64,000 bases of DNA from Ruegeria arenilitoris. GTDB lineage: Bacteria; Pseudomonadota; Alphaproteobacteria; Rhodobacterales; Rhodobacteraceae. Both the position numbers and the translations under genes were made by a program. Below the pieces are notes generated by a model. It was not told the origin of the DNA, did not search any database, and saw only the letters and a program-made list of their open reading frames with translations. The stretch is from NCBI RefSeq assembly GCF_013030265.1, contig NZ_WPZQ01000011.1, forward strand, positions 124,001 to 188,000, in the 5' to 3' direction. Of this stretch, positions 4,460-37,349 are shown one piece after another; the first letter of the stretch is position 1; every line of letters starts with the position of its first letter.

Positions 4460-5488
4460 CTAATTTTCCAGCGCTGACTTTCGTATCGCAGAGTTTCTTT
4501 CGATCAACTGTGCCTCTAACTTTTCAGAATCTGGTCTCTCCTGGAAAGAAATCCAGCGGGCCAACGCGATGGCTGTACGTTCGCCCATTCTGGAAACTGG
4601 AAGATGAACCGTCGACAACGAGGGTACGGCGACGGCAGAACTGGGCAGATCATCCAGGCCCATCAACGATACGTCTTTCGGAACACTTACTCCCTTGGAT
4701 TGAAGACCAAACAAAACCCCTAGCGCGACGACGTCCGAAAGACACAAGACAGCGTCAGTCATGACCGCGTTGCTTACGATACGCGCAGCTGCTTCCGCAC
4801 CGCCGCGAAGGCTGATTTCAGTCTCAACAGTTGCAAGTTCGCCGTTCCAGTTCACAGCGCGCAACCCGGAAAGCCGCGCGAGTGTCCGGTCATTGTTATG
4901 AACCGGGCCGTGCACAACAGTGATTTTCTGATGCCCCAGGTCAATGAGGTGCTGCAGTGCCAATTGTGCCGCGGCCTTGTTGTCATACCCGATCGTTGGC
5001 AATGGATTGGAGCCGTCATAATAGGATGTGATGATTGTGGGTATCATCGTACGTTCGAGAAGTTCGTGGAACTCATCGGAATGGGTTGCGCCGGTAACGA
5101 TCAGGCCTTCTGCCCCAATATCGACAAGCCCCTTCGCCTTTTTAGCTTCGACCTGCAAGTCAGACTCAGTAGTGGCCACAATCAACGATAACCCATCTTC
5201 GGAAAGCTTTCGCTCCAGAGCGGCCAAGAACCGGGCAAAAATGGCATTGTCCAGTGTTGGAACCAGCGCACCTACAAAACGCGTACGGCCAGAATTAATT
5301 GCTCGGGCCGCCGCACTAGGGACGAAGCGAAGTTCAGTGATCGCTTTTTGAACTTTCTCCAGAGTGTCCTTTTTTACCACATCTGGTTCATTCAGTACTC
5401 GGGACACCGTCGCGACTGAAACGCCCGCTGCTTTTGCGACATCTCTGAGATTTGCGCGTTTTTTCAGCGCGGGGGCTTTTTGTGTCAC
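4460..5488 (-). CDS. LacI-family transcriptional repressor
   Basis: 342 residues. The N-terminal LacI helix-turn-helix (NLRDVAKAAGVSVATVSRVL, about 13-32) has the hinge region VPSAAARAINSGRTRFVG, followed by a periplasmic-binding-protein-like effector domain (about 65-335). The start is GTG at 5488; no strong ribosome site is visible. The gene is divergent from the DUF1989-GcvT/ABC operon, and two LacI-like quasi-palindromes lie in the shared 105-base intergenic region, so it most likely controls that operon and perhaps itself. LacI proteins usually bind sugars or related metabolites; the effector here is unknown and may be the imported compound (inference). Confidence 0.93.
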   Translation of the reverse strand: MTQKAPALKKRANLRDVAKAAGVSVATVSRVLNEPDVVKKDTLEKVQKAITELRFVPSAAARAINSGRTRFVGALVPTLDNAIFARFLAALERKLSEDGLSLIVATTESDLQVEAKKAKGLVDIGAEGLIVTGATHSDEFHELLERTMIPTIITSYYDGSNPLPTIGYDNKAAAQLALQHLIDLGHQKITVVHGPVHNNDRTLARLSGLRAVNWNGELATVETEISLRGGAEAAARIVSNAVMTDAVLCLSDVVALGVLFGLQSKGVSVPKDVSLMGLDDLPSSAVAVPSLSTVHLPVSRMGERTAIALARWISFQERPDSEKLEAQLIERNSAIRKSALEN

Positions 5489-5535
5489 CTGTATTTGCGT
5501 CCACTATTTTGAGTTTCAATGAAAGTGTTGACATA

Positions 5536-5572
5536 TGTAACTAGTTTCATCAACCTCTGTAACTAGTTTCAT
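5536..5572. promoter_or_regulatory. Twin LacI-type operators
   Basis: Two identical 15-base copies TGTAACTAGTTTCAT (5536-5550 and 5558-5572), 22 bases start to start, so on the same DNA face. The first 14 bases are a near-perfect palindrome around CTAG (TGWAACTAGTTWCA, one mismatched pair). A TTGACA hexamer (5528-5533) lies just upstream, so the first site would fall in the promoter spacer and the second over the start region of the operon beginning at 5594. No good -10 hexamer is evident. Geometry and position fit repression by the divergent LacI protein. Confidence 0.72.
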
Positions 5573-5593: not shown

Positions 5594-7918
5594 ATGCAAG
5601 GTTCTGCTGTCTTACACGAGTTCACGAATTCCGGGTTCGAAAGCCCGGGACGCAGATTCCCTGGGTTTCCGAAGGCTTCCGGGGTTCGAAAATATGTTCT
5701 GGCATCGCGGGAAGCGATCCGAGTGGTGTTGGATCCGGGTGATTTGCTATCCTTGGAAGCGGCGTCGCAGACGCAACCTCTGGACATTGTTGCATATCTC
5801 AACGGGCAGACGGCGCTTGCTCATCTGGGCTTAGAGGCAAACGGAGCGCTTGATCACTACGAATTCAACAGCGAGCCACTCGAGGGTTGGATCAGTGCGA
5901 ATGGCGGAAATCCAACGCAAACAATTCCATGCTACAAGGCAGTCGCGTCTGCAGATCCTTTGATCTTGCGTACAGACAATCGCATCACAGTTTGGCTGAT
6001 CCGACCAACTCCGAACACTGGATTGATCGAAGGGATTGGTTCTGGCTGCGTCGCGGTTTCTCATACGGTTGCAGCTTCAAGTGTGCCTTTATTGCCACCG
6101 CTTTTGGGTGATACGCGAGACGAATTCACTGTGCCGCGCGGTACGGGACTCGCATATGAGCTGAAAGCCGGTGAATTTGTTCAAATCATCGACGTCGAGG
6201 GGCAGCAGTGCTCTGACTTCATGGCACTTCGTTCCGACGGGTTGGATCGCGGAGACGAATGGATGATCGACTCGACCGCGACCCGGTCGATGGTGCGACG
6301 CGCCTATCCTGGCCCCGGTTTGCTTGACAAGTTTTACGACCGTGAGATGCGGCCTCTTCTCAATGTGGTGCAAGACACCTGTGGGCGTCATGATACATTT
6401 GGTCTGGCTTGCACCGCACGTGGCTATGAAGAGCGGGGCTTTCCCGGGCATGTGAACTGTTCAGATAATATGTCGAACGCGTTGGCTGCCTATGGTATAG
6501 CCCGTCGTTCTGCGTGGCCGGCCGTAAATTTCTTCTGGAGCACGTGGATTGATCCGGCAAGTCATCACATCCTGACCGAAGAATCCCATTCGCGTCCCGG
6601 CGACTACGTCGCCATGCGCGCAATGGAGAATCTGGTGTGCGTTTCAACTGCTTGCCCGGACGATATTGACCCGATCAATGGTTGGAACCCGACGGATGTG
6701 CATGTCCGTATCTACCGCCCGGAAACACCGATCCGCCGCGCGGTTGCCTATCGTGAAAAGGAAGATGCCCCGATGTCGATCAGTCAGGAGTCCGCGTTTC
6801 ATGACCGTCTGGCCCCACTGACCCAACAATTTGCACCTGCACGTGATCTATGGGCGCCAGTCAGCTTTCCCGCTTTCGGAACATTGGGCGAGTACTGGGC
6901 CTGTCGCGAGGCAGTGACGGTGCAGGACATGAGCGGGTTGCGCAAATTCGATATCGTTGGCCCAGATGCGGAGAAACTGCTCCAACAAGCAACAACCCGA
7001 AACGTAGCCAAGCTGCCGATCTGGCGCGGGTCCTACACTTTGATGTGCGACGAAAGCGGGTCGGTCATCGATGACGGCACGCTTTTTCGGCTTGCGCCCG
7101 AGATATTCCGCTGGTGCTGCGGCTCTGAAGAAAGTGGCCGCGCACTGCAGTCATTGGCCACGAATCTGGGCCTGCAGGTCCGTGTGCACGCCATGCAGAA
7201 CGCGATGCCTAACCTCGCGATTCAGGGGCCAAAATCGCGCGACCTATTGCGCAAGATCACCTTTACTCAACCACACGTTCCTTCGTTGGATGACCTGAAG
7301 TGGTTCGGGGTCACGATCGCCCGCCTCAACAATCGCGAGGGTGCGCCATTCATGCTCTCGCGCTCCGGATACACTGGGGAGCTGGGCTACGAAATCTTCT
7401 GTTCCAAGTCTGACGCGATTGAGATCTGGGACGCTGTCATGGAAGCGGGTCAGGAACTTGGAGTTACACCCATGGGCTCGGCAGCATTGGACATTATCCG
7501 GATCGAAGCCGGGTTGGCCGCGGCAAATGCTGAATTTGCACCCGGAGTAGATGCATTCGAAGCCGGGTTGGGCTTCGCCATCGATCTGAACAAAAACAAT
7601 TTTACGGGCAAAGCCGCGCTTGACAGAAACGCGCGAGAGCCGCGTCGCGCGCTCAAAGGCTTACTGATCGGCTGTGATGATGTACCTGCCCACGGCGCCC
7701 CTGTTTTTGTCGGTGAACGGCAGGTAGGCGTCGTCACTTCGGCCACCAGGTCACCGATGCTGGAACACGCCATCGCGATGGCGAGGGTGTCGGTCGAACA
7801 TTCCGAGAACGGGACACAGCTGGAAATCGGTCAACTTGACGGGCGGATGAAAAGGCTCGGCGCCACTGTCTCGGACATTCCATTCATAGACCCGCAACGA
7901 AAGCGGGCGCGCGCCTGA
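5594..7918 (+). CDS. DUF1989-GcvT fusion (aminomethyltransferase-like) protein
   Basis: 774-residue multidomain cytoplasmic protein. Residues about 30-165 resemble a degenerate first DUF1989-like unit. Residues about 175-380 are a clear DUF1989 (urea-carboxylase-associated) domain with IIDVEGQQCSDFMAL and the conserved TACPDDIDPING (352-363). Residues about 415-770 are a GcvT-type folate methyltransferase: VIDDGTLFRL with acidic D493/D494 at the folate-binding position, AIQGPKS (542-548), SGYTGELGYEIF (591-602) and a C-terminal barrel. The IDD motif is GcvT-like, whereas DmdA has LND. It leads an operon with a betaine-type ABC importer, so a role in tetrahydrofolate-linked demethylation or cleavage of an imported methylated compound is inferred. 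DUF1989 proteins are otherwise linked to urea/guanidine chemistry; the reaction is unknown. Confidence 0.88.
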   Translation: MQGSAVLHEFTNSGFESPGRRFPGFPKASGVRKYVLASREAIRVVLDPGDLLSLEAASQTQPLDIVAYLNGQTALAHLGLEANGALDHYEFNSEPLEGWISANGGNPTQTIPCYKAVASADPLILRTDNRITVWLIRPTPNTGLIEGIGSGCVAVSHTVAASSVPLLPPLLGDTRDEFTVPRGTGLAYELKAGEFVQIIDVEGQQCSDFMALRSDGLDRGDEWMIDSTATRSMVRRAYPGPGLLDKFYDREMRPLLNVVQDTCGRHDTFGLACTARGYEERGFPGHVNCSDNMSNALAAYGIARRSAWPAVNFFWSTWIDPASHHILTEESHSRPGDYVAMRAMENLVCVSTACPDDIDPINGWNPTDVHVRIYRPETPIRRAVAYREKEDAPMSISQESAFHDRLAPLTQQFAPARDLWAPVSFPAFGTLGEYWACREAVTVQDMSGLRKFDIVGPDAEKLLQQATTRNVAKLPIWRGSYTLMCDESGSVIDDGTLFRLAPEIFRWCCGSEESGRALQSLATNLGLQVRVHAMQNAMPNLAIQGPKSRDLLRKITFTQPHVPSLDDLKWFGVTIARLNNREGAPFMLSRSGYTGELGYEIFCSKSDAIEIWDAVMEAGQELGVTPMGSAALDIIRIEAGLAAANAEFAPGVDAFEAGLGFAIDLNKNNFTGKAALDRNAREPRRALKGLLIGCDDVPAHGAPVFVGERQVGVVTSATRSPMLEHAIAMARVSVEHSENGTQLEIGQLDGRMKRLGATVSDIPFIDPQRKRARA

Positions 7919-7952
7919 AGGCGCAAGCAACACTACGCAACAGGAGAACAAG

Positions 7953-8924
7953 ATGAAGCACTTTAATACACTGACTGCGTCGCTGGCATTGGCCTTGGGT
8001 GCCACCACTGCAATGGCGCAGGAAAAGGTTATGGTTGGTGAACCCAGCTGGCCTGGAGCCAAGATTATGAGCCGTGTGATCGGCCAAGTCATTGAAACCC
8101 GTCTTGGCGGTGAGGTCGGCTATGCGCCCGGCGCAAACGCAGTGATCTTTGCTGCGATGGATGGTGGGCGTGGTGACATTGACGTGCACCCCGATGTCTG
8201 GTTGCCAAACCAATCTTCGTTCACTGACGAATACGTGGACCAAAAGGGGACAGTTGGCCTGTCCGACGGTAGCTATGAAGGTCGTGCCGGAATTTGTGTT
8301 CCGACCTACATGGTCGAGGATCACAACATCAAATCGATCTATGATCTTGCCACACCGATGGCACAGGAGCTTTTTGACTCAGACGGCGATGGCATGGGCG
8401 AGGTCTGGGTTGGTGCTTCTGGTTGGGCATCTACCAATACATTTAAAGTACGGGTACGCGATTATGGCATCGAAACTTTCCTGACGCCGACCACCGAGGA
8501 TGAAACGGTATTCTATTCGCGTTTGAAGGATCAGATCGATCAGAAGAAAGGTGCAGCGTTCTACTGTTATGCACCGCATTACGTGCACGCACTTTATGAC
8601 GTCACCATTCTGGAAGAGCCCGAACATGATCCGGCCACCTACAAAATGGTACAACCCGATCAGGATGCTGATTGGTACAACCAGTCTCATGTCAGCACCG
8701 GCGAGCCGGTAAAGACGGTAACTGTTGCGCATTCCAAGTCTTTGGACCAGCGCAATCCGGCGGCCGCGTCATTCCTGAGCAGCATCAACATGGATGCCGC
8801 CCAGCTGAGCGGTCTGACTTATGAAGTCGTGGTCAAAGGGCGCGAGATCGATGAGGTTGTGGCCGAATGGATCGATGCCAATGGCGATACAGTTGATGGC
8901 TGGCTGGGCCTGAAAACCAACTGA
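7953..8924 (+). CDS. proX: Glycine betaine/proline-type ABC substrate-binding protein
   Basis: 323-residue periplasmic binding protein of the OpuAC/ProX (quaternary amine) family; the symbol is family level only. A signal peptide is cleaved about after TAMA (residues 1-22), and the mature protein starts QEKVMVGEPSWPGAK. Family blocks include DIDVHPDVWLPN and GVASW-like GASGWAST. AGGAG lies 7 bases before the ATG. Unusual: residues 142-150 (DSDGDGMGE) match an EF-hand-like calcium loop DxDxDGxxE. The preceding fusion gene ends 34 bases upstream. Ligand candidates are betaines, choline, proline betaine or DMSP-like compounds (inference). Confidence 0.92.
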   Translation: MKHFNTLTASLALALGATTAMAQEKVMVGEPSWPGAKIMSRVIGQVIETRLGGEVGYAPGANAVIFAAMDGGRGDIDVHPDVWLPNQSSFTDEYVDQKGTVGLSDGSYEGRAGICVPTYMVEDHNIKSIYDLATPMAQELFDSDGDGMGEVWVGASGWASTNTFKVRVRDYGIETFLTPTTEDETVFYSRLKDQIDQKKGAAFYCYAPHYVHALYDVTILEEPEHDPATYKMVQPDQDADWYNQSHVSTGEPVKTVTVAHSKSLDQRNPAAASFLSSINMDAAQLSGLTYEVVVKGREIDEVVAEWIDANGDTVDGWLGLKTN

Positions 8925-8930
8925 AGCAAC

Positions 8931-8962
8931 TGTGCCCCCGGCGTTTCTGGTTCGGGGGCGCA
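8931..8962 (+). terminator. Intercistronic hairpin after the binding-protein gene
   Basis: Inverted repeat TGTGCCCCCG (8931-8940) and CGGGGGCGCA (8953-8962), one G-T pair, 12-base loop, starting 6 bases after the proX-like stop. No T-tract follows. Such GC-rich hairpins after binding-protein genes often stabilise the upstream message and lower expression of the following ATPase and permease genes; that role is inferred here. Confidence 0.6.
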
Positions 8963-8992
8963 ATCCACAAGACCAACTATGGTGAGACCAGT

Positions 8993-10042
8993 ATGACAGC
9001 GGATATCGCAATCGATGCGCGTGGCGTGTGGAAAGTTTTCGGAGCAAAGGCGCAAGACGCGTTGATGGCCATTCACAATGAGGGGCTGAGCAAGGCGGAG
9101 GTACTTGAACGCTTCAACTGCGTTGTAGGTGTTGCCGATGCCAGTTTCGAGATCGAACGCGGTGAGCTGTTTTGCGTTATGGGTCTGTCCGGGTCGGGTA
9201 AGTCGACTCTGGTGCGCCACGTCAACCGTCTGCTGGAACCCACGGATGGCCATATCTACCTCGACGGCGATGACGTGATGGGCCTGAAGGACGAAGGCCT
9301 TCGTGATTTGCGCAATCGCCGCGTTGCGATGGTGTTCCAGAACTTTGGCCTGATGCCCCACCGTACTGTTCGTGACAACGTAGCTATGCCCCTGGAAATT
9401 CGCGGTACCGGCAAGGCGCGTCGCTGGGAAGAGGCGGATCGCGTTCTTGAACTGGTGGAACTGAGCGGCTGGGAAGACAAATACGCGCACGAACTGTCTG
9501 GTGGTATGCAGCAGCGGGTTGGTCTTGCCCGCGCTATCGCTGCGGACCCGGAGATTTTGTTGATGGACGAGCCGTTCTCGGCCCTTGACCCGCTGATCCG
9601 CAAACAGTTGCAGGATCAGTTCATGGAGCTCAGCAACAAACTCAACAAGACTACGATGTTTATCACGCACGATCTTGATGAAGCCATTCGTATCGGCCAT
9701 CGAATTGCGATTATGAAAGACGGGCGCATAGTTCAGATTGGCACGCCGGAAGAGATCATTCTGAATCCGGCAGATGACTATGTTGCTGACTTCGTTGCCG
9801 GGATTTCAAAACTCAACATGATCTTTGCCCATGCGGTGATGAAGCCGGTTGAAGAATTCGAGGCACATCACGGTGAGGTTCCGACAGACGCCAAAGAGGC
9901 ACATCCCGACATGGATTTGTCTGATCTCATGAACCTCTGCGTAGATGGTCACGGGGTTGTGGCTGTCACTCAGGACGGCAAGACCGTGGGCGTGATCAAC
10001 CGGGCGGGTCTGATCCGCGCCATTCAAGACAGTCAGGCATAA
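8993..10042 (+). CDS. proV: Quaternary-amine ABC transporter ATP-binding protein
   Basis: 349-residue ATPase of the ProV/OpuAA family (symbol at family level). The family-specific N-terminal helix NEGLSKAEVLERFNCVVGVADASF precedes Walker A GLSGSGKS (64-71), Q-loop (FQNFGLMPHRTV), signature LSGGMQQ (168-174) and Walker B ILLMDEP (188-194). A C-terminal extension (about 275-349) ends in one recognisable CBS-like segment (VVAVTQDGKTVGVINRAGLI), the place where ProV/OpuA carry ionic-strength-sensing CBS domains. The start has GGTGAG upstream. It powers the permease encoded 10 bases downstream. Confidence 0.94.
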   Translation: MTADIAIDARGVWKVFGAKAQDALMAIHNEGLSKAEVLERFNCVVGVADASFEIERGELFCVMGLSGSGKSTLVRHVNRLLEPTDGHIYLDGDDVMGLKDEGLRDLRNRRVAMVFQNFGLMPHRTVRDNVAMPLEIRGTGKARRWEEADRVLELVELSGWEDKYAHELSGGMQQRVGLARAIAADPEILLMDEPFSALDPLIRKQLQDQFMELSNKLNKTTMFITHDLDEAIRIGHRIAIMKDGRIVQIGTPEEIILNPADDYVADFVAGISKLNMIFAHAVMKPVEEFEAHHGEVPTDAKEAHPDMDLSDLMNLCVDGHGVVAVTQDGKTVGVINRAGLIRAIQDSQA

Positions 10043-10052
10043 GGGAACGGCG

Positions 10053-11570
10053 ATGAAACACGTTGACGTACAACAGGTCCAACCCGAGACCGCTGACCGC
10101 CTGAACGGCCTGATAGGTGATTTCGTCGGGCAGGGCGAGGCGTATTATCAGAAAACATTCTCCTACATGATGCAGGCACCGGGTTACCGGTTTACCCTGA
10201 ACAAGGCAGCTGCGATTCTTGGGCCGATCTGGTTTGGAGCGCGCGGTCTCTGGTCGTGGTTTCTGACTTTTCTGGTTCTTGAAACACTGGCTTACATACA
10301 GATAGGGCTGGGTCTTTTTGGTGATCTTGGGCGCGAATTTCGCGAACGGGCCGAGCAGATCGAACAAACCCTTGATCTTCGCCGACAACAGATCGAAGCG
10401 GCCGAACAATCGGGGGCCGCCTCGCTCGATTCCCTGAAACGTGCGGCAGAGTCGCTAGAGGGGGCTTTGGCCGGGGCTCAGGACGCTGCTCGAAGTGCCG
10501 ATTCAACGGGGATCACATATCTGGCAGCAGGCATCGTCCTGTTGCTGGTCGTAAAGTTTATCGCTGCGTCATTGGCCAACTGGACCTTAGAGGGTCAGTT
10601 CGCCCGCTGGCGATCAGATTCCAGCGTGGCTCATGGGTGGTCCATGGTACGGATGATTGTTGCATCGGCACTGACCCTGGTCGTTGTCATTCTGTCCGCA
10701 ATAAAATTTGCGCAACCCGATGCGTTTGCGATCCTCAAGACTTTTCCAACCAACCGTGACTGGCGATTGAATGTCGGGGATGGTGTGCAGGCAGTCTTTG
10801 AATGGACCAAAACTGCTGGTCGAGGTTTCTTTGACGGGCTGACATACGGGATGCGCACCCTGTTGGACTGGATCGAGGTGGTTCTGGTCGACACGCCCTG
10901 GCCAGTGGTTTCGCTGGTTATCATTATGTTGGCTTACCTTTCCGCGGGTGCGCGTGTTGCGATTTTCACCGGCGCTGCATTGGCCTATCTCGGGTTACTG
11001 GATTTCTGGGAAAAGGCGATGACCACTATCGCACTGTTGGGTGCTGCAGCGATGATCTCAATTACGCTGGGCATCCCACTTGGTATCTATTGTGCGCGTC
11101 GGCCCAGGGCCTTTGCCATCGTGCGGCCGATACTGGACTTCATGCAATCGATGCCATCCTTTGTTTATCTGATCCCGGTGGTCGCATTCATCGGATCCGG
11201 TAAACCCGCAGGTGTGGTCGCGACCATGATTTTTGGCAGTCCACCCGTCATTCGCTTTACCGTCCTTGGTTTGCAGCAGGTTCCCGAAACCGTGCGCGAG
11301 GCTGCTTTGGCATTTGGTGCCACCCCGCGCTATCTGCTTTGGCGCGTAGATCTTCCACTTGCGCACAAAACCATCATGGCAGGTGTCAATCAGACCATCC
11401 TGATGTCATTGGCCATGGTTGTTGTCGCATCGCTGATCGGGGCAAAGGGACTGGGCGAAGATGTTCTGGAGGCGTTGCAATATGCTGCGGCGGGGCAGGG
11501 TATATTGGCAGGCCTAGCCATTTTGTTTTGCGCTCTCATTCTGGATCGTATTGTGGCCGGTAAGAAGTGA
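10053..11570 (+). CDS. proW: Quaternary-amine ABC transporter permease with long N-terminal extension
   Basis: 505 residues; ordinary ProW-type permeases are about 280-390. The C-terminal half (about 290-500) is the transport domain, with several membrane helices and the coupling motif around EAALAFGATPRYLLWRVDLPLA. The N-terminal 240 residues hold two membrane segments (about 55-75 and 152-172) separated by a charged, probably coiled-coil helix of about 70 residues (REFRERAEQIEQTLDLRRQQ onward). Marine ProW-like permeases can have such extensions; their function is not known to me. It is the last gene of the operon; symbol at family level. Confidence 0.92.
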   Translation: MKHVDVQQVQPETADRLNGLIGDFVGQGEAYYQKTFSYMMQAPGYRFTLNKAAAILGPIWFGARGLWSWFLTFLVLETLAYIQIGLGLFGDLGREFRERAEQIEQTLDLRRQQIEAAEQSGAASLDSLKRAAESLEGALAGAQDAARSADSTGITYLAAGIVLLLVVKFIAASLANWTLEGQFARWRSDSSVAHGWSMVRMIVASALTLVVVILSAIKFAQPDAFAILKTFPTNRDWRLNVGDGVQAVFEWTKTAGRGFFDGLTYGMRTLLDWIEVVLVDTPWPVVSLVIIMLAYLSAGARVAIFTGAALAYLGLLDFWEKAMTTIALLGAAAMISITLGIPLGIYCARRPRAFAIVRPILDFMQSMPSFVYLIPVVAFIGSGKPAGVVATMIFGSPPVIRFTVLGLQQVPETVREAALAFGATPRYLLWRVDLPLAHKTIMAGVNQTILMSLAMVVVASLIGAKGLGEDVLEALQYAAAGQGILAGLAILFCALILDRIVAGKK

Positions 11571-31907: not shown

Positions 31908-32019
31908 AAGAATCTCTGTTTGGCGTAATCGGATACTATTTTGTCAAGAAATGAGCTTATCGACAATCCATAGGGCAGATAAATGACGCGAAACCATAAT
32001 GACCGCCAGGGAGCCTGGA

Positions 32020-33783
32020 ATGTCCTATCAGCCGCCCGTTCAGGATTTGATGTTTTGTGTCGAGCACTTGTCCCACTGGGAGAAGGTGTCGTCGCTGGCC
32101 GCATATTCGGACTACGACTTGGAGGATATTGGTGCTGTTCTCGAAGGCTATGCCCGGTTCTGCGGTGAGCAGATCGCGCCTTTGTCCCATATTGGAGACA
32201 CTTTGGGGGCCCGGTTTGGCAACGGGCGCGTGACTATGCCTGAGGGCGACGCGCAGGCCTATGCACAGTTCGTCGAGATGGGTTGGCAGGCCCTGACCCA
32301 CCCGGTGGAATACGGTGGCATGGGGTTGCCGCGAACCGTCGGCGCAGCAGCCGTGGAAATGCTGAATGCCGCTGATATGAGCTTTGGCCTCTGCCCACTC
32401 CTGACTGATGGGGCCATTGAGGCGCTACTGCTGACGGGTTCGGATGATCAGAAAGCCATGTACCTTGAACCGCTGATTGCTGGACGCTGGTCCGGCACGA
32501 TGAACCTGACGGAACCACAAGCGGGCAGCGATCTGGGGCGCGTGGCGACCAAAGCGGTGCAACGTGCGGATGGCAGCTATGGCATCTCAGGAACGAAAAT
32601 TTTCATCACATATGGCGCTCATGATCTGACCGAGAACATCATCCATTTGGTATTGGCCCGTACACCCGACGCACCTGCCGGGCCTAAGGGGCTGAGCCTG
32701 TTCATCGTGCCGCAGAAGCTTGTGGAAGCGGACGGGACGGTAGGATCAGAAAATACGGTCAACTGTGTGAGCATCGAACACAAACTTGGTGTTCGCGCCA
32801 GCCCGACGGCGGTTCTGGAATACAATGATGCCACGGGGTTCTTGATCGGCGATGAAAATCGCGGGTTGGAATACATGTTCATCATGATGAACGCAGCGCG
32901 GTTCTCCGTTGGTGTGCAGGGTATTGCGACTTCTGAGCGGGCCTACCAACGTGCCCTGGCCTATGCACGCGAGCGGGTGCAAAGCCGTCCGGTGAATGGT
33001 CAGGCCAAAGATGCAGTCGCCATCATTGAACACCCGGATGTCCGCCGTATGCTCATGCGGATGCGCAGCCTGACGCAAGGCGGTCGGGCCATGGCAGCGG
33101 CGACCGCTGGGTTGTTGGACATCGCACATCATCAAGACAATCCGGAGATGGCTGCCCTGGCCGAATTCATGGTTCCGCTGGTCAAAGGTTTCTGCTCGGA
33201 ACGTGCAGTTGAGGTCGCATCGCTGGGCGTGCAAATCCATGGCGGCATGGGCTTTATCGAGGAAACCGGTGCCGCGCAGCATTACCGCGACGCACGCATT
33301 CTGCCGATTTACGAAGGCACCACCGCCATTCAGGCCAACGACCTTCTGGGACGCAAGGTAATGCGCGACGGCGGCGAAACTGCCCGCCGCTTCGCAGCTC
33401 GGATAAAGGCAACCGAAGCGGAACTGGCCGACGGTGACGCAACGGCGCAAGCTATCAGCACAAGTCTTGCGCAGGCGCGCGGCGCGTTTGAAACCGCATT
33501 GGATTGGTTGTTGGAAAACTGCCGAAAGGACATCGATGCAGCCTTTGCGGGCTCGGTCCCGTTCCTGATGTTGGCGGGTACGCTGGCGGCGGGATGGAAG
33601 CTGGCGAAGGGTGCGTTAGCCGCGCAGGATGCGCTGGATGCTGGACAGAAAACGCAATTCATGTCCCAGAAAATTGCCACCGCCCTTTTCTTTGCGCAGC
33701 ACATTTTGCCTGAATGCATGACCGAACACACTCGCATTCTGTACGGCTCGCGCAGCCTGCTTGATGCGGCTTTTGCCGAATAA
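32020..33783 (+). CDS. dmdC: Methylmercaptopropionyl-CoA dehydrogenase
   Basis: 587-residue FAD-dependent acyl-CoA dehydrogenase of the long DmdC type with a C-terminal extension. The ATG at 32020 has AGGGAG 6 bases upstream; the in-frame ATG at 31999 does not. Blocks: MNLTEPQAGSDLG (substrate/FAD side), FITYGAHDLTENIIHLVLAR, and IYEGTTAIQAND with Glu432 at the catalytic-base position. In the DMSP demethylation pathway DmdC oxidises 3-methylmercaptopropionyl-CoA to methylthioacryloyl-CoA. Assignment rests on family plus the adjacent dmdD, dmdB and dmdA genes; by itself it could be any FadE-like enzyme. Confidence 0.85.
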   Translation: MSYQPPVQDLMFCVEHLSHWEKVSSLAAYSDYDLEDIGAVLEGYARFCGEQIAPLSHIGDTLGARFGNGRVTMPEGDAQAYAQFVEMGWQALTHPVEYGGMGLPRTVGAAAVEMLNAADMSFGLCPLLTDGAIEALLLTGSDDQKAMYLEPLIAGRWSGTMNLTEPQAGSDLGRVATKAVQRADGSYGISGTKIFITYGAHDLTENIIHLVLARTPDAPAGPKGLSLFIVPQKLVEADGTVGSENTVNCVSIEHKLGVRASPTAVLEYNDATGFLIGDENRGLEYMFIMMNAARFSVGVQGIATSERAYQRALAYARERVQSRPVNGQAKDAVAIIEHPDVRRMLMRMRSLTQGGRAMAAATAGLLDIAHHQDNPEMAALAEFMVPLVKGFCSERAVEVASLGVQIHGGMGFIEETGAAQHYRDARILPIYEGTTAIQANDLLGRKVMRDGGETARRFAARIKATEAELADGDATAQAISTSLAQARGAFETALDWLLENCRKDIDAAFAGSVPFLMLAGTLAAGWKLAKGALAAQDALDAGQKTQFMSQKIATALFFAQHILPECMTEHTRILYGSRSLLDAAFAE

Positions 33784-33804
33784 TTCCTTGAAAGGACCTG
33801 ACCC

Positions 33805-34614
33805 ATGAATGATGTCGTGAACCCTGACACTTACGAAAACCTCGCGATTTCAGAGCGTGAGAACGGTCTGTACGTCGTAACTTTGAACCGCCCTTCAAAG
33901 CGCAATGCGCTGGATGTGGCCACAATCGAGGAACTGATCCGCTTTTTTAGCGGAGCACGTATGGCTGGGGTCAGAGCCGTGGTTCTCGCTGGTGAAGGCG
34001 ACCATTTCTGCGCGGGTCTTGATCTGGTTGAGCATTGGAAAGCCGACCGTAGCCCGGATGACTTCATGCATGTCTGCCTGCGTTGGCATGAGGCATTCAA
34101 TAAGATGGAGTATGGCGGTGTGCCGATCATTGCTGCACTCAAAGGTGCCGTTGTCGGCGGAGGACTGGAACTCGCCAGCGCGGCGCATATCCGGGTGATC
34201 GATCCGGGAACCTATTTCGCCCTGCCCGAAGGCCAGCGCGGGATTTTCACCGGTGGTGGAGCGACAATCCGTGTTTCAGACATGATCGGCAAGTACCGCA
34301 TGATCGACATGATCCTGACGGGCCGCGTCTATCAGGGACAAGAGGCCGTTGATCTGGGATTGGCGCAATACATCACCGAAGATGGCGGCAGCATGGCCAA
34401 GGCAATGGAGCTGGCAGAACAAATTGCGAAGAACCTGCCACTGACGAACTTTGCCATCTGTTCTGCGATTAGCCACTTGAACAACATGTCCGGCATGGAT
34501 GCCGCCTATGCAGAGGCTGTGGTGGGTGGAGTGGTCAATACCCAACCTGCGGCCCGTGCGCGCCTGGAAGCTTTTGCAAACAAAACCGCCGCCCGCGTGC
34601 GGCCCAACAGCTAA
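33805..34614 (+). CDS. dmdD: Methylthioacryloyl-CoA hydratase
   Basis: 269-residue crotonase-fold enzyme. The two catalytic glutamates of DmdD-type hydratases are present: Glu122 in GGGLELAS and Glu142 in ALPEGQRG. The oxyanion block [11 protein letters not shown] and an N-terminal [12 protein letters not shown] are also seen. In the pathway it hydrates methylthioacryloyl-CoA, releasing methanethiol and acetaldehyde. AAAGGA lies about 9 bases before the ATG. It begins 21 bases after dmdC. A general enoyl-CoA hydratase role is the alternative. Confidence 0.82.
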
Positions 34615-34630
34615 CTCAGGCGGAACCGGG

Positions 34631-36244
34631 ATGCGTCAGCAATTCGAAGCTCTTCAAAAGACGCGGGCAAACCATGTGCCCTTGTCACCGATATCTTTCC
34701 TGCGCCGCGCCGAAAATCTGCACGGCGCGCGAACGGCGGTGATCTATGGCGACATTCAAAGAACATGGGCCGAAACTGCAACCCGCATTCGCGCTGTGGC
34801 CGGTGGGCTGGTCGAACTTGGCGTGCAGAAAGGCGACACGGTTTCAGTGCTGAGCCCGAATGTCCCGGAACTCTTTGAGTTGCACTTTGCCCTACCGTTG
34901 ACGGGCGGTGTCCTCAACACACTGAACACGCGGCTGGAGCCGGAAACCATCGCCTACATTCTGGATCACGCGGACACGAAGCTGGTGATCGTGGATCAGG
35001 AGCTTGTACCGCTTTTGTCGAAAGCCTTTGAACTACTTGGTCGGACCTTGCCAGTGGTCGAAATCGTCGATCCTGCGGTCACCGGTGAGAGCCTTGGTGG
35101 GCAAACCTACGAGGCGTTGACTGAAGCCACACCGCTACCAATAGAACTGCCCGATGATGAATGGGATGCCATTGCGTTGAACTACACGTCCGGTACGTCC
35201 GGTCGCCCGAAAGGCGTTGTCTATCACCATCGCGGGGCCTATCTGGTGGCGCTCGGCACAGGGACAGCTTGGCAGATGCCGCCTTACCCGGTCTATCTGT
35301 CGGTGGTGCCGATGTTCCACTGCAACGGCTGGGGGCACCCGTGGTTGATGGCCATGCTTGGCGCGACTGTCGTGTTTACTCGTGTTCCGGCGGCAGACCG
35401 TATTCTGAACGCGATCCGTACCCATGGCGTGACTCATTTCGGTGCGGCGCCCATCGTGTTGCAAATGTTGGCCGAAGCCGCGAGCGACGCGGCCCCATTC
35501 GATCCTGCAATCCGCGTTTTGACGGCGGGTGCACCACCGCCGCCTTCGGTACTGGAAAAAACCCGCTCGATGGGGCTCGACGTCATGCAGGTCTACGGCC
35601 TGACAGAGACCTACGGCCATATCTCACAGTGTCTTTGGCAGGATGACTGGGACCAACTCAGTCCAGCGGAGCAAGCCGAATTGCAAGCGCAGCAAGGCAT
35701 CGCCTTTCCGATGGTCGAAGAGGTCACAGTGATCGACCGTAACAGTGACACACCCGTAACACGCGATGGTGTTACACAGGGCGAAATCGCCATTCGGGGC
35801 AACACGGTGATGGCGGGGTACTACAAGGACGCCGAGGCCACGTCGAAAGCTTTTGAGGACGGTTGGTTCTGGTCCGGCGACGGCGCTGTCTTACATGAAA
35901 ACGGCTACATCCAGATACGTGACCGCCTGAAAGACGTTATCATTTCCGGCGGAGAAAACATTTCTTCGGTCGAGGTCGAAGCAGTACTCTACCGCCATGA
36001 GGCCGTACAGGCCGCTGCCGTGGTTGCGATGCCACACGATAAATGGGGCGAAGTCCCCTGCGCCTTTGTCGAATTGCGCGAAGGTGCCGAAACAACATCT
36101 GACGAGATCATAGCCTTCTGCCGCGAGCATCTGGCCGGGTTCAAGGCCCCCAAAGTCGTCGTCTTCGAAACTCTTCCCAAAACCTCCACCGGTAAGATTC
36201 AGAAGTTCCAGCTTCGGGATCGCGCCAAAGCAATGGACCTTTGA
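34631..36244 (+). CDS. dmdB: Methylmercaptopropionate-CoA ligase
   Basis: 537 residues from the ATG at 34631; the frame is open upstream within dmdD, but only the shorter product is family-like. ANL-superfamily acyl-CoA synthetase with the AMP-binding P-loop YTSGTSGRPKGVVYHH (about 185-200), the aromatic motif QVYGLTETYGH, the hinge (SGDGAVLHENGYIQIRDR-KD) and the C-terminal Lys motif LPKTSTGKIQKFQLR. It activates methylmercaptopropionate, the product of DmdA, to its CoA thioester. It starts 17 bases after dmdD and is followed by dmdA with one intervening base. Confidence 0.85.
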   Translation: MRQQFEALQKTRANHVPLSPISFLRRAENLHGARTAVIYGDIQRTWAETATRIRAVAGGLVELGVQKGDTVSVLSPNVPELFELHFALPLTGGVLNTLNTRLEPETIAYILDHADTKLVIVDQELVPLLSKAFELLGRTLPVVEIVDPAVTGESLGGQTYEALTEATPLPIELPDDEWDAIALNYTSGTSGRPKGVVYHHRGAYLVALGTGTAWQMPPYPVYLSVVPMFHCNGWGHPWLMAMLGATVVFTRVPAADRILNAIRTHGVTHFGAAPIVLQMLAEAASDAAPFDPAIRVLTAGAPPPPSVLEKTRSMGLDVMQVYGLTETYGHISQCLWQDDWDQLSPAEQAELQAQQGIAFPMVEEVTVIDRNSDTPVTRDGVTQGEIAIRGNTVMAGYYKDAEATSKAFEDGWFWSGDGAVLHENGYIQIRDRLKDVIISGGENISSVEVEAVLYRHEAVQAAAVVAMPHDKWGEVPCAFVELREGAETTSDEIIAFCREHLAGFKAPKVVVFETLPKTSTGKIQKFQLRDRAKAMDL

Positions 36245-36245
36245 A

Positions 36246-37349
36246 ATGCGCCTGCTGTCCCAATCCCGTCGCCTGCGCCAGACACCTTTTTCAGAGGGCG
36301 TCGAAGACAAAGGCGTTACCGCCTACACCGTTTACAACCGGATGCTGCTGCCGACGGTTTTCGAAAGCGTCGAGGCCGACTATCGGCATCTCAAATCTCA
36401 TGTTCAGGTCTGGGATGTATCCTGCGAACGGCAAATCGAACTAAACGGCCCGGATGCTGGTCGCCTTATGCGGCGATTGACACCCCGAAATCTTGAGAAC
36501 ATGCAGGAAGACCAGTGCTACTACGTACCAATTGTTGATGAAAACGGTGGCATGCTGAACGACCCGGTGGCGATCAAACACAGCGAGGATCGCTGGTGGA
36601 TCTCAATCGCCGACAGCGATCTGTTATTGTGGATTAAGGGTTTGGCCGTTGGTGCGGGCATGGATGTACGCGTGTTTGAGCCTGACGTTTCACCCTTGGC
36701 AGTGCAAGGACCAAAATCAGATGACCTGATGGCCCGGGTCTTTGGCGAAGAGGTGCGCGACATCCGCTTTTTCAGGTATAAACGATTAGCGTTTCAGGAC
36801 ACGTCATTTGTGGTGGCGCGGTCTGGCTACTCGAAACAGGGCGGCTATGAGATCTATGTCGAAAATGGTGCCTACGGTATGCCACTGTGGAACGCCCTTT
36901 TCGAAGCCGGAGATGATCTGAATGTTCGTCCGGGATGTCCAAATTTGATCGAACGGATCGAAGGCGGATTGTTGAGCTATGGCAACGATATGACCATGGA
37001 AAACTCGCCGCTGGAGTGCGGATTGGGCAAATTCTGCAAACCGAACGAGAACAGTGACCACATTGGCAAGCAAGCACTTGCCAGCGAAGTTGAAACTGGC
37101 TCGACCCGACAGATCCGCGCGATTTCCATTCCAGGAGATCCCGTGCCCCCAGCTCGCTCGGCTTGGCCTCTGTTCGACGGTCGAAAGCGAGTTGGTCAAG
37201 TTACTTCAGCTGCTTGGTCGCCAGACTTCGATACAAACGTCGCAATTGGAATGGTGGATGCCGGTTACTGGGACTCCGGTACGGAGCTTGAAGTACAAAC
37301 TCCAACGGGTTTCCGACGAGCAGATGTACGAGGTTCGTTCTGGATATAG
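36246..37349 (+). CDS. dmdA: DMSP demethylase
   Basis: 367 residues, the usual DmdA length. GcvT-fold tetrahydrofolate-dependent demethylase. The N-terminus (SRRLRQTPFSEGVEDKGVTA, TVYNRMLLP, VQVWDVSCERQIEL) and SGYSKQGGYEIYV, PLAVQGPKSDDLMARVFGE, NLIERIEGGLLSYGNDM are typical of DmdA. The folate-site motif reads MLNDP (103-107), as in DmdA, instead of the IDD of glycine-cleavage T-proteins. It removes a methyl from DMSP to give methylmercaptopropionate. Last gene of the operon, directly following dmdB. A DmdA-like paralogue acting on another substrate remains possible. Confidence 0.85.
   Translation: MRLLSQSRRLRQTPFSEGVEDKGVTAYTVYNRMLLPTVFESVEADYRHLKSHVQVWDVSCERQIELNGPDAGRLMRRLTPRNLENMQEDQCYYVPIVDENGGMLNDPVAIKHSEDRWWISIADSDLLLWIKGLAVGAGMDVRVFEPDVSPLAVQGPKSDDLMARVFGEEVRDIRFFRYKRLAFQDTSFVVARSGYSKQGGYEIYVENGAYGMPLWNALFEAGDDLNVRPGCPNLIERIEGGLLSYGNDMTMENSPLECGLGKFCKPNENSDHIGKQALASEVETGSTRQIRAISIPGDPVPPARSAWPLFDGRKRVGQVTSAAWSPDFDTNVAIGMVDAGYWDSGTELEVQTPTGFRRADVRGSFWI

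Follow-up and report, generated by a model that had tools for sequence, protein, structure and literature searches.

What does a bacterium do with a protein in which a DUF1989 metal domain is fused to a GcvT-like domain, when the gene for that protein is followed by the genes of a betaine-type ABC importer and faces the gene of a divergent LacI-family regulator? This question is raised by one locus within a stretch of 64,000 nucleotides of Ruegeria arenilitoris DNA (contig NZ_WPZQ01000011.1, positions 124,001 to 188,000; hereafter the window), for which the original prediction, made from the DNA letters, was an undescribed pathway. There is a known enzyme of this kind, trimethylamine N-oxide (TMAO) demethylase or Tdm, which converts TMAO to dimethylamine and formaldehyde. 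By its sequence, the window protein is a member of a sister clade of Tdm, here called Tdm2, rather than a plain Tdm. The operon is probably a self-contained, substrate-inducible module for import and demethylation, built around this sister enzyme; import plus demethylation is the likely class of mechanism, and TMAO or another small methylated amine (N-oxide) is the most likely substrate.

A sister clade of TMAO demethylase

The fusion that had been read from the 774-residue protein passes the Pfam cut-offs in all its parts: DUF1989 (PF09347) at residues 179-348 with 147.2 bits (cut-off 27), GCV_T (PF01571) at residues 403-662 with 198.2 bits (cut-off 25.6), and GCV_T_C at residues 685-766 with 62.5 bits (cut-off 25.9). 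The architecture was already known, because the NCBIfam model for TMAO demethylase (NF053776) and a solved TMAO demethylase (PDB 9q59) match the window protein, the former with 1064.9 bits over residues 26-774 (model positions 8-763 of 763), the latter with 618 bits over residues 167-773. Judged by homology, the architecture is that of Tdm, for which solved structures and an NCBI model exist, and the claim of an undescribed reaction and architecture has to be given up (9q59, NF053776, PMC12560246); the link of DUF1989 to urea or guanidine chemistry, from which a nitrogen-containing substrate had been argued, adds nothing given the homology to Tdm. Literature searches on DUF1989 with GcvT or aminomethyltransferase gave PMC12560246 as the sole match, and searches of titles and starts of abstracts gave no paper on the Tdm2 clade. 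A predicted structure of Tdm2 (predicted local distance difference test, pLDDT, 77.8) matched GcvT-type and DUF1989 structures in a fold search; 9q59 was absent among the 50 matches listed.

Tdm2 shares with Tdm (NF053776; PDB 9q59, 9q5l and 9q5a; M. silvestris enzyme, PMC12560246) the full-length three-part architecture that marks the broad TMAO demethylase family, the proposed metal ligands, and a leucine in place of the tetrahydrofolate (THF)-binding arginine; it differs in forming a clade at about 41% identity, in scoring below the model cut-off, and in lying in a LacI operon with an importer instead of a tmm/dmm/gmaS setting. The score of the window protein is under the curated NF053776 cut-off of 1100 bits, so it does not count as an equivalog; five other Tdm2 proteins scored 1021.4 to 1046.8 bits, whereas five canonical Tdm proteins scored 1157.2 to 1236.6. 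In a midpoint-rooted FastTree tree of 59 Tdm2 and 11 canonical sequences (certain rows being one gene drawn from two collections), each group is monophyletic with a support of 1.0. Sequences share a median identity of 62.5% inside Tdm2, 62.4% inside Tdm, and 40.8% across the two groups. The DUF1989 parts of the two groups align in HHalign with 100% probability and 58% identity; the N-terminal domains have a median identity of 14.6% and are homologous (93.5% probability, 14% identity). The N-terminal domain had been predicted to be a degenerate second DUF1989 module, which the sequence does not bear out: no Pfam stretch lies N-terminal to residue 179, and HHalign gives residues 1-165 a probability of 6% against the protein's own DUF1989 part and of 7.5% against the canonical one. 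The canonical N-terminal domain reaches 30% over 56 columns against the DUF1989 part, and an excerpt of PMC12560246 gives Tdm three domains in all, the N-terminal one having, in an AlphaFold model, a DUF1989-like fold without the zinc cysteines.

The metal ligands proposed for M. silvestris Tdm, again as excerpted from PMC12560246, are C263, C279, C343, H276, D346, and D198, which in our reading of the motif spacing correspond to C273, C289, C354, H286, D357, and D208 of the window Tdm2. All six are invariant in 29 sequences from Tdm and Tdm2; across 42 Tdm2 rows five never vary, and position 357 is aspartate in 40 and glutamate in 2. Tdm2 therefore has the three zinc cysteines and the proposed histidine and aspartate residues of the broad TMAO demethylase family. 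The predicted IDD motif of GcvT proteins is present (VIDDGT), with D493 and D494 invariant in the 42 rows. The arginine in the GARD motif of B. subtilis GcvT, which is taken to be the THF-binding arginine of PMC12560246, is leucine in the window Tdm2 and in 9q59, as it is in 42/42 Tdm2 rows and 10/11 canonical rows; L632 of the window Tdm2 is leucine in 42/42 Tdm2 rows, and F498 is phenylalanine in 40/42. There are 24 positions fixed differently in Tdm and Tdm2 (at least 90% in each group), nine of them within residues 165-375 around DUF1989; R213, F247, F283, S294, A307, and I361 are among the 24.

Among 295 genomes of the family, 80 have a match at E <= 1e-150. In 18 genomes the match has 53-100% identity and at least 848 bits, the remaining matches have at most 50% and 674 bits, and six genomes carry Tdm and Tdm2 together; canonical status was assigned by identity, with the model score as a check in five cases. 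The 376 genomes drawn from the class divided likewise into a lower group of up to 52% (708 bits) and an upper group from 63%, with one genome (G636) as the sole new Tdm2 carrier beyond the window genome and G210. In viral contigs, the scan produced 40 pattern matches and not one relative.

In annotation by the Prokaryotic Genome Annotation Pipeline (PGAP), the canonical gene in Ponticoccus is a 'trimethylamine-oxide aldolase Tdm' and the Tdm2 gene on a Paracoccus seriniphilus plasmid only an 'aminomethyltransferase family protein'. On that plasmid (p599725, locus L187), tdm2 is annotated as two overlapping coding sequences, a short hypothetical one and the aminomethyltransferase, perhaps because the gene is broken or perhaps through the annotation itself. 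On pRL11 of Rhizobium johnstonii (L188), a Tdm-family gene is named only DUF1989 domain-containing protein, and genes for DUF3445 and a DmmA-family dimethylamine monooxygenase lie about 6 kb away; Rhizobium makes up 94 of the 137 matching plasmid records. Besides tdm2, the window genome (G000) has 19 matches of GcvT type to the Tdm model; 16 lie in open frames of 796-1012 residues and are probably dimethylglycine/sarcosine dehydrogenase-type fusions. It also has one DUF1989-only match, on contig C14.

The operon, its recurrence and its operator

The features of the locus, in window coordinates, are:

4460..5488, minus strand: LacI-family regulator, probably a repressor (LacI helix-turn-helix, 62.7 bits, and Peripla_BP domains, over cut-off)
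5528..5533, plus strand: TTGACA hexamer, a possible -35 element directly 5' of operator copy 1, read from the sequence
5536..5549, plus strand: operator copy 1, TGTAACTAGTTTCA (motif TGWAACNNGTTWCA)
5558..5571, plus strand: operator copy 2, TGTAACTAGTTTCA, 22 bp from copy 1
5594..7918, plus strand: tdm2, 774 residues, with an N-terminal domain, the DUF1989 metal domain (179-348) and the GcvT-like domain (403-766)
7953..8924, plus strand: type-1 periplasmic substrate-binding protein (SBP), OpuAC family (145.3 bits, cut-off 21.2)
8993..10042, plus strand: ABC ATPase, ProV/ChoV-like (TIGR01186 proV 357.3 bits, cut-off 326.6)
10053..11570, plus strand: ABC permease, ProW/ChoW-like (residues ~236-501) with an N-terminal extension (BPD_transp_1 82.6 bits, cut-off 26.4)

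The LacI gene is divergent from the other four genes, which share one strand and are separated by 34, 68, and 10 bases (open reading frame coordinates). The regulator and the ProXVW-type importer that had been predicted are thus both present, each importer subunit being over the cut-off of its model. The ATPase has a weak C-terminal match to CBS, under its cut-off; the best NCBIfam models for the permease are choline/betaine permeases, each under its own cut-off; and the N-terminal extension of the permease (10053-10760) has a marginal DUF2628 match (23.6 bits, cut-off 23). Long permeases are found elsewhere too, the type-3 permease of L050 having 513 residues and type-2 permeases about 600. 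A promoter scan gave 0 pairs, with no -10 partner for the hexamer at 5528-5533.

Does this arrangement recur? A scan of named genomes gave 80 loci at 60-90% identity (the best 80 of 201 relatives), mostly from Rhodobacteraceae/Roseobacteraceae but also from Roseibium/Labrenzia, Granulosicoccus, Geminicoccaceae, and Rhodovibrionaceae; genera with the operon include Ruegeria, Leisingera, Roseibium, and Paracoccus. A divergent LacI gene is present in 68 of these loci, all three ABC subunits in 65, and both in 60. In the 64 loci that are well flanked (1.3 kb or more upstream, 6 kb or more downstream), the divergent LacI gene is found in 59, the three subunits downstream in 59, and both in 57, and 17 additional loci, several of them the same genes as in the named set, had LacI and the three subunits in 10. 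Neither a failure of the profiles nor a pair lying mainly away from importers was seen. The importer comes in three versions: type 1 (SBP-ATP-PERM, as in the window) in 43 of the 64, type 2 (ATP-PERM-SBP) in 14, and type 3 in 2. On the midpoint-rooted Tdm2 tree the type switches five times (Fitch parsimony, 48 typed leaves), and such repeated re-pairing of enzyme with importer speaks for a functional link between them. The pairing is real and recurrent.

Clustering of the open reading frames of the 80 loci revealed no common pathway gene besides LacI and the importer; other clusters in at least 10 loci were rejected as overlapping non-genes, judged by their offset and short length over operon genes. 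Two sets of neighbours were discarded as substrate clues for being mutually discordant, namely those of the importer-less loci (PfkB kinase, SGL, kynureninase, FAA hydrolase, Hint domain, sensor kinase) and those of the divergent loci L052-L054 (glyoxalase, PrpF, CobW, amidohydrolase, APH, enolase, mannitol dehydrogenase, SDR); in L054 the LacI gene adjoins tdm2. In L050, what looked like a 337-residue gene lying between tdm2 and CuyA is the opposite strand of a LysR-like gene and was discarded.

The operator was found as a palindrome in the intergenic regions upstream of tdm2 and generalised to TGWAACNNGTTWCA. This motif lies near the start of tdm2 in 64 of the 68 loci with a divergent LacI gene (at least two copies in 42) and in one of the 12 without, several of which are cut by contig ends; these counts are descriptive, because the motif was derived from the loci counted. 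The one locus of the 12 is L096, the LacI gene of which lies about 6 kb downstream, and an earlier tally that counted any LacI reading frame in the locus gave 64/69 with and 0/11 without. The only matches elsewhere in the 1.51 Mb of loci are two in L122, which lie at +22 and +43 relative to its estimated tdm2 start. The whole window genome (4.62 Mb) offers a more independent check: TGWAACNNGTTWCA is confined there to window positions 5536-5549 and 5558-5571, and the reversed control has no match. As these are the only two places, the regulator seems specific to this one operon, so that, from the sequence, LacI would serve tdm2 and its importer alone. A single-operon regulon fits a pathway of import plus one enzyme.

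Elsewhere in the window, positions 31999-37349 carry genes for an acyl-CoA dehydrogenase, an enoyl-CoA hydratase, an acyl-CoA ligase, and DmdA (36246-37349; NF009133 611 bits, cut-off 410), a probable cluster for demethylation of dimethylsulfoniopropionate (DMSP).

Relatives of the importer and genes of the methylamine pathway

What does the importer carry? The TMAO importer TmoXWV of Ruegeria pomeroyi belongs to the same ProXVW superfamily, but the window SBP is distant from TmoX (PDB 4xz6; E 1.6e-5) and does not qualify as its orthologue. Another SBP of the window genome is much closer to TmoX (E 6.4e-55), and a third is nearest ProX (E 1.1e-88). In our reading of the phmmer alignment, tryptophans of the window SBP align with W55, W102, and W177 of TmoX (residue names from an excerpt of PMC8918994). 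The window SBP belongs to a family of onium or zwitterion binders and keeps the aromatic residues W33, W83, W158, Y204, and Y206, which do not vary across the 12 rows aligned (10 of type 1, 2 of type 3). TmoX Glu131, which hydrogen-bonds the oxygen of TMAO, is paired by phmmer with an alanine (A112 by count) with E109 nearby; the predicted SBP structure (mean pLDDT 60.7) is too poor for a fold search or for a comparison at Glu131.

In a midpoint-rooted tree of 107 SBP rows, the type-1 group (53 rows, support 100/98) and a sister group (31 rows, 95/76) are joined at 96/91; the type-1 group includes L147, a long-branch row of unsure placement from a genome without Tdm2. The sister group includes SBPs of importers that adjoin CuyA, annotated as D-cysteate sulfo-lyase. 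These CuyA-linked importers of Rhodobacteraceae (type-3 SBP group) have SBPs 46-52% identical to the window type and share its invariant aromatics and a DVHPDVWLPNQ motif (two type-3 rows aligned), with PHAVW instead of PHYVH. Among the 16 type-3-like loci that were fetched (of ~33 found), 12 have a CuyA-like gene nearby, and three proteins tested against the CuyA model scored 485.1 to 493.9 bits (cut-off 450). In L171, a CuyA-like gene is accompanied by genes for a CuyB cysteate racemase (250.3 bits, cut-off 190) and a HisD-like protein. Downstream of tdm2, L050 and L129 carry a cassette of LysR, CuyA and importer genes; L094 has an importer of the CuyA-linked type immediately after tdm2, without CuyA. 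The ligands of the sister group are mixed, because L164 and L167 have related SBPs beside genes of the allantoate/N-carbamoyl amidohydrolase family, a sign of yet another class of ligand among these importers. Taken together, these observations point to a small zwitterion or onium compound, which could be TMAO, another N-oxide, or a methylated aminosulfonate.

In genomes of the family, betaine-type ABC importers beside CuyA-like genes were seen in L143, L144, L146, L148-L151, L153-L157, L168, and L171 (CuyA score checked in L143 and L148), and are a candidate aminosulfonate uptake system; according to an excerpt of PMC10130141, the cysteate importer named from experiments in R. pomeroyi is cuyTUVW (SPO3040-3043).

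Is the Tdm2 module then part of the route by which trimethylamine (TMA) and TMAO are taken through dimethylamine (DMA) and monomethylamine (MMA)? In the 295 family genomes, tmm was detected by NF058570, DmmA-class HODM genes by PF11927 above a self-set score gap, and GmaS by a query (L055:17614-18927, E <= 1e-150) called GmaS from its place in a canonical cluster. Of the 62 genomes with Tdm only, 58 have tmm, 55 GmaS, and 37 a DmmA-class gene; the corresponding counts are 6, 5, and 2 for the six genomes with both enzymes (64, 60, and 39 for all 68 Tdm genomes), 0, 2, and 0 for the 12 with Tdm2 only, and 2, 35, and 2 for the 215 with neither. Tdm2-only genomes resemble those that lack both enzymes (Fisher p 1.0 in all three cases), whereas they differ from Tdm genomes in tmm (p 3e-11), GmaS (p 1.4e-6), and DmmA-class genes (p 2e-4). 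The window genome, which is 99.99% complete, has no tmm, GmaS, or DmmA-class gene; its best match to TIGR03105 (type III glutamine synthetase, the PGAP name in the Ponticoccus Tdm cluster) has 232.8 bits, with a cut-off of 469.6. The Tdm2 module looks like one that stands outside the TMA/TMAO nitrogen pathway, as a self-contained system of import and demethylation.

What the module may do

What the data show is the homology, the conservation of the proposed metal ligands, the clade, the operon with its operator, its recurrence, and its independence of the genes for TMA, DMA, and MMA use; the following course of events would be consistent with this. When no substrate is present, the divergent LacI would sit on the two TGTAACnnGTTwCA operators and block transcription, as operator conservation suggests. 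When substrate is present, the SBP, ATPase, and permease would take up a small methylated amine compound, transport being presumably inward; Tdm2 would use the metal site of its DUF1989 domain to cleave a methyl C-N bond, presumably by N-oxide-type chemistry; formaldehyde would be freed, or handed to THF at the GcvT-like domain; and the demethylated amine may leave the cell or join general metabolism. In keeping with the earlier proposal, uptake and C-N demethylation of a methylated nitrogen compound is the likeliest function that we can infer.

Several points weigh against a module of this kind. Transferring the substrate from Tdm is unsafe, because Tdm2 lies below the NF053776 cut-off (6/6) and its N-terminal domain is ~15% identical. 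Five of the 64 well-flanked loci have no importer nearby, Tdm2 is rare outside the family, and the nearest SBP relatives outside Tdm2 loci adjoin cysteate-type, not methylamine, genes (the 12 of 16 loci above). If the substrate is TMAO, the window genome is without genes for its nitrogen, and the presence of Tdm and Tdm2 together in six genomes, where 4.1 are expected (Fisher p 0.38), would be redundant. To these are added the descriptive nature of the operator counts and the basis of the whole in sequence and genome context.

The substrate can be viewed in more than one way. Tdm2 could quite possibly be a TMAO demethylase served by a non-orthologous TMAO importer, with TMAO as a source of one-carbon units or energy and dimethylamine excreted. 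The shared architecture and conserved proposed metal ligands speak for this, as does the finding that only 9 of the 24 fixed differences fall around DUF1989; but the distance of the SBP from TmoX, with a closer relative in the same genome, and the six genomes with both enzymes do not, nor does the lack of tmm and DmmA-class genes in Tdm2-only genomes, in which GmaS (2/12) occurs at the rate of genomes with neither enzyme (35/215), in contrast to Tdm genomes. That Tdm2 acts instead on another methylated amine (an N-oxide, methylated aminosulfonate or amino acid), the product of which is used by ordinary enzymes, deserves to be taken just as seriously, without being favoured. Such a substrate would agree with the decoupling from the TMA pathway, the separate clade and divergent N-terminal domain, the single-operon regulon without downstream enzymes, and the sister position (midpoint root) of the type-1 SBPs to a group that includes SBPs beside CuyA/CuyB cysteate genes, as well as with the CuyA cassette of L050 and L129, the CuyA-type importer of L094, and the 19 further GcvT-type matches in the genome, 16 of them in long frames. 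Against it, no pathway gene besides LacI and the importer is common to most Tdm2 loci, the CuyA cassette has its own LysR and may be a mere neighbour, and long GcvT-type frames lie near tdm2 in 9 of 80 loci, where 6-8 are estimated from genome density.

A THF methyltransferase like DmdA or the glycine-cleavage protein, acting on betaine, choline, or DMSP with DUF1989 as an accessory, is very improbable. Tdm2 has the GcvT fold, which it shares with DmdA, and the DD motif; yet DmdA lacks DUF1989, the best whole-length match is Tdm, the DmdA and gcvT models give 145.8 of 410 and 178.7 of 235.85 bits (both under cut-off), the THF-binding arginine of GcvT is leucine, and the genome has its own DmdA.

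Returning to the module for import and demethylation, the architecture of its enzyme is known, and it is the setting, with a private LacI and three importer types, that is unusual and well conserved. There is somewhat less than an even chance that Tdm2 acts on a compound other than TMAO, possibly another methylated amine oxide or a methylated aminosulfonate, and would represent a new route by which marine alphaproteobacteria catabolise a methylated nitrogen compound. That such a route would consist of one enzyme, a dedicated importer of three interchangeable types, and a private repressor is, as a whole, put forward with the same reserve. According to an excerpt of PMC13390433, methylated amines make up an important share of dissolved organic nitrogen in the sea. 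The substrate is open to direct tests through the single-operon regulon and the binding protein, and the answer would either weaken the rule that a tdm-like gene in a genome or metagenome means use of TMAO for nitrogen, or reveal a previously unassigned compound that these bacteria consume.

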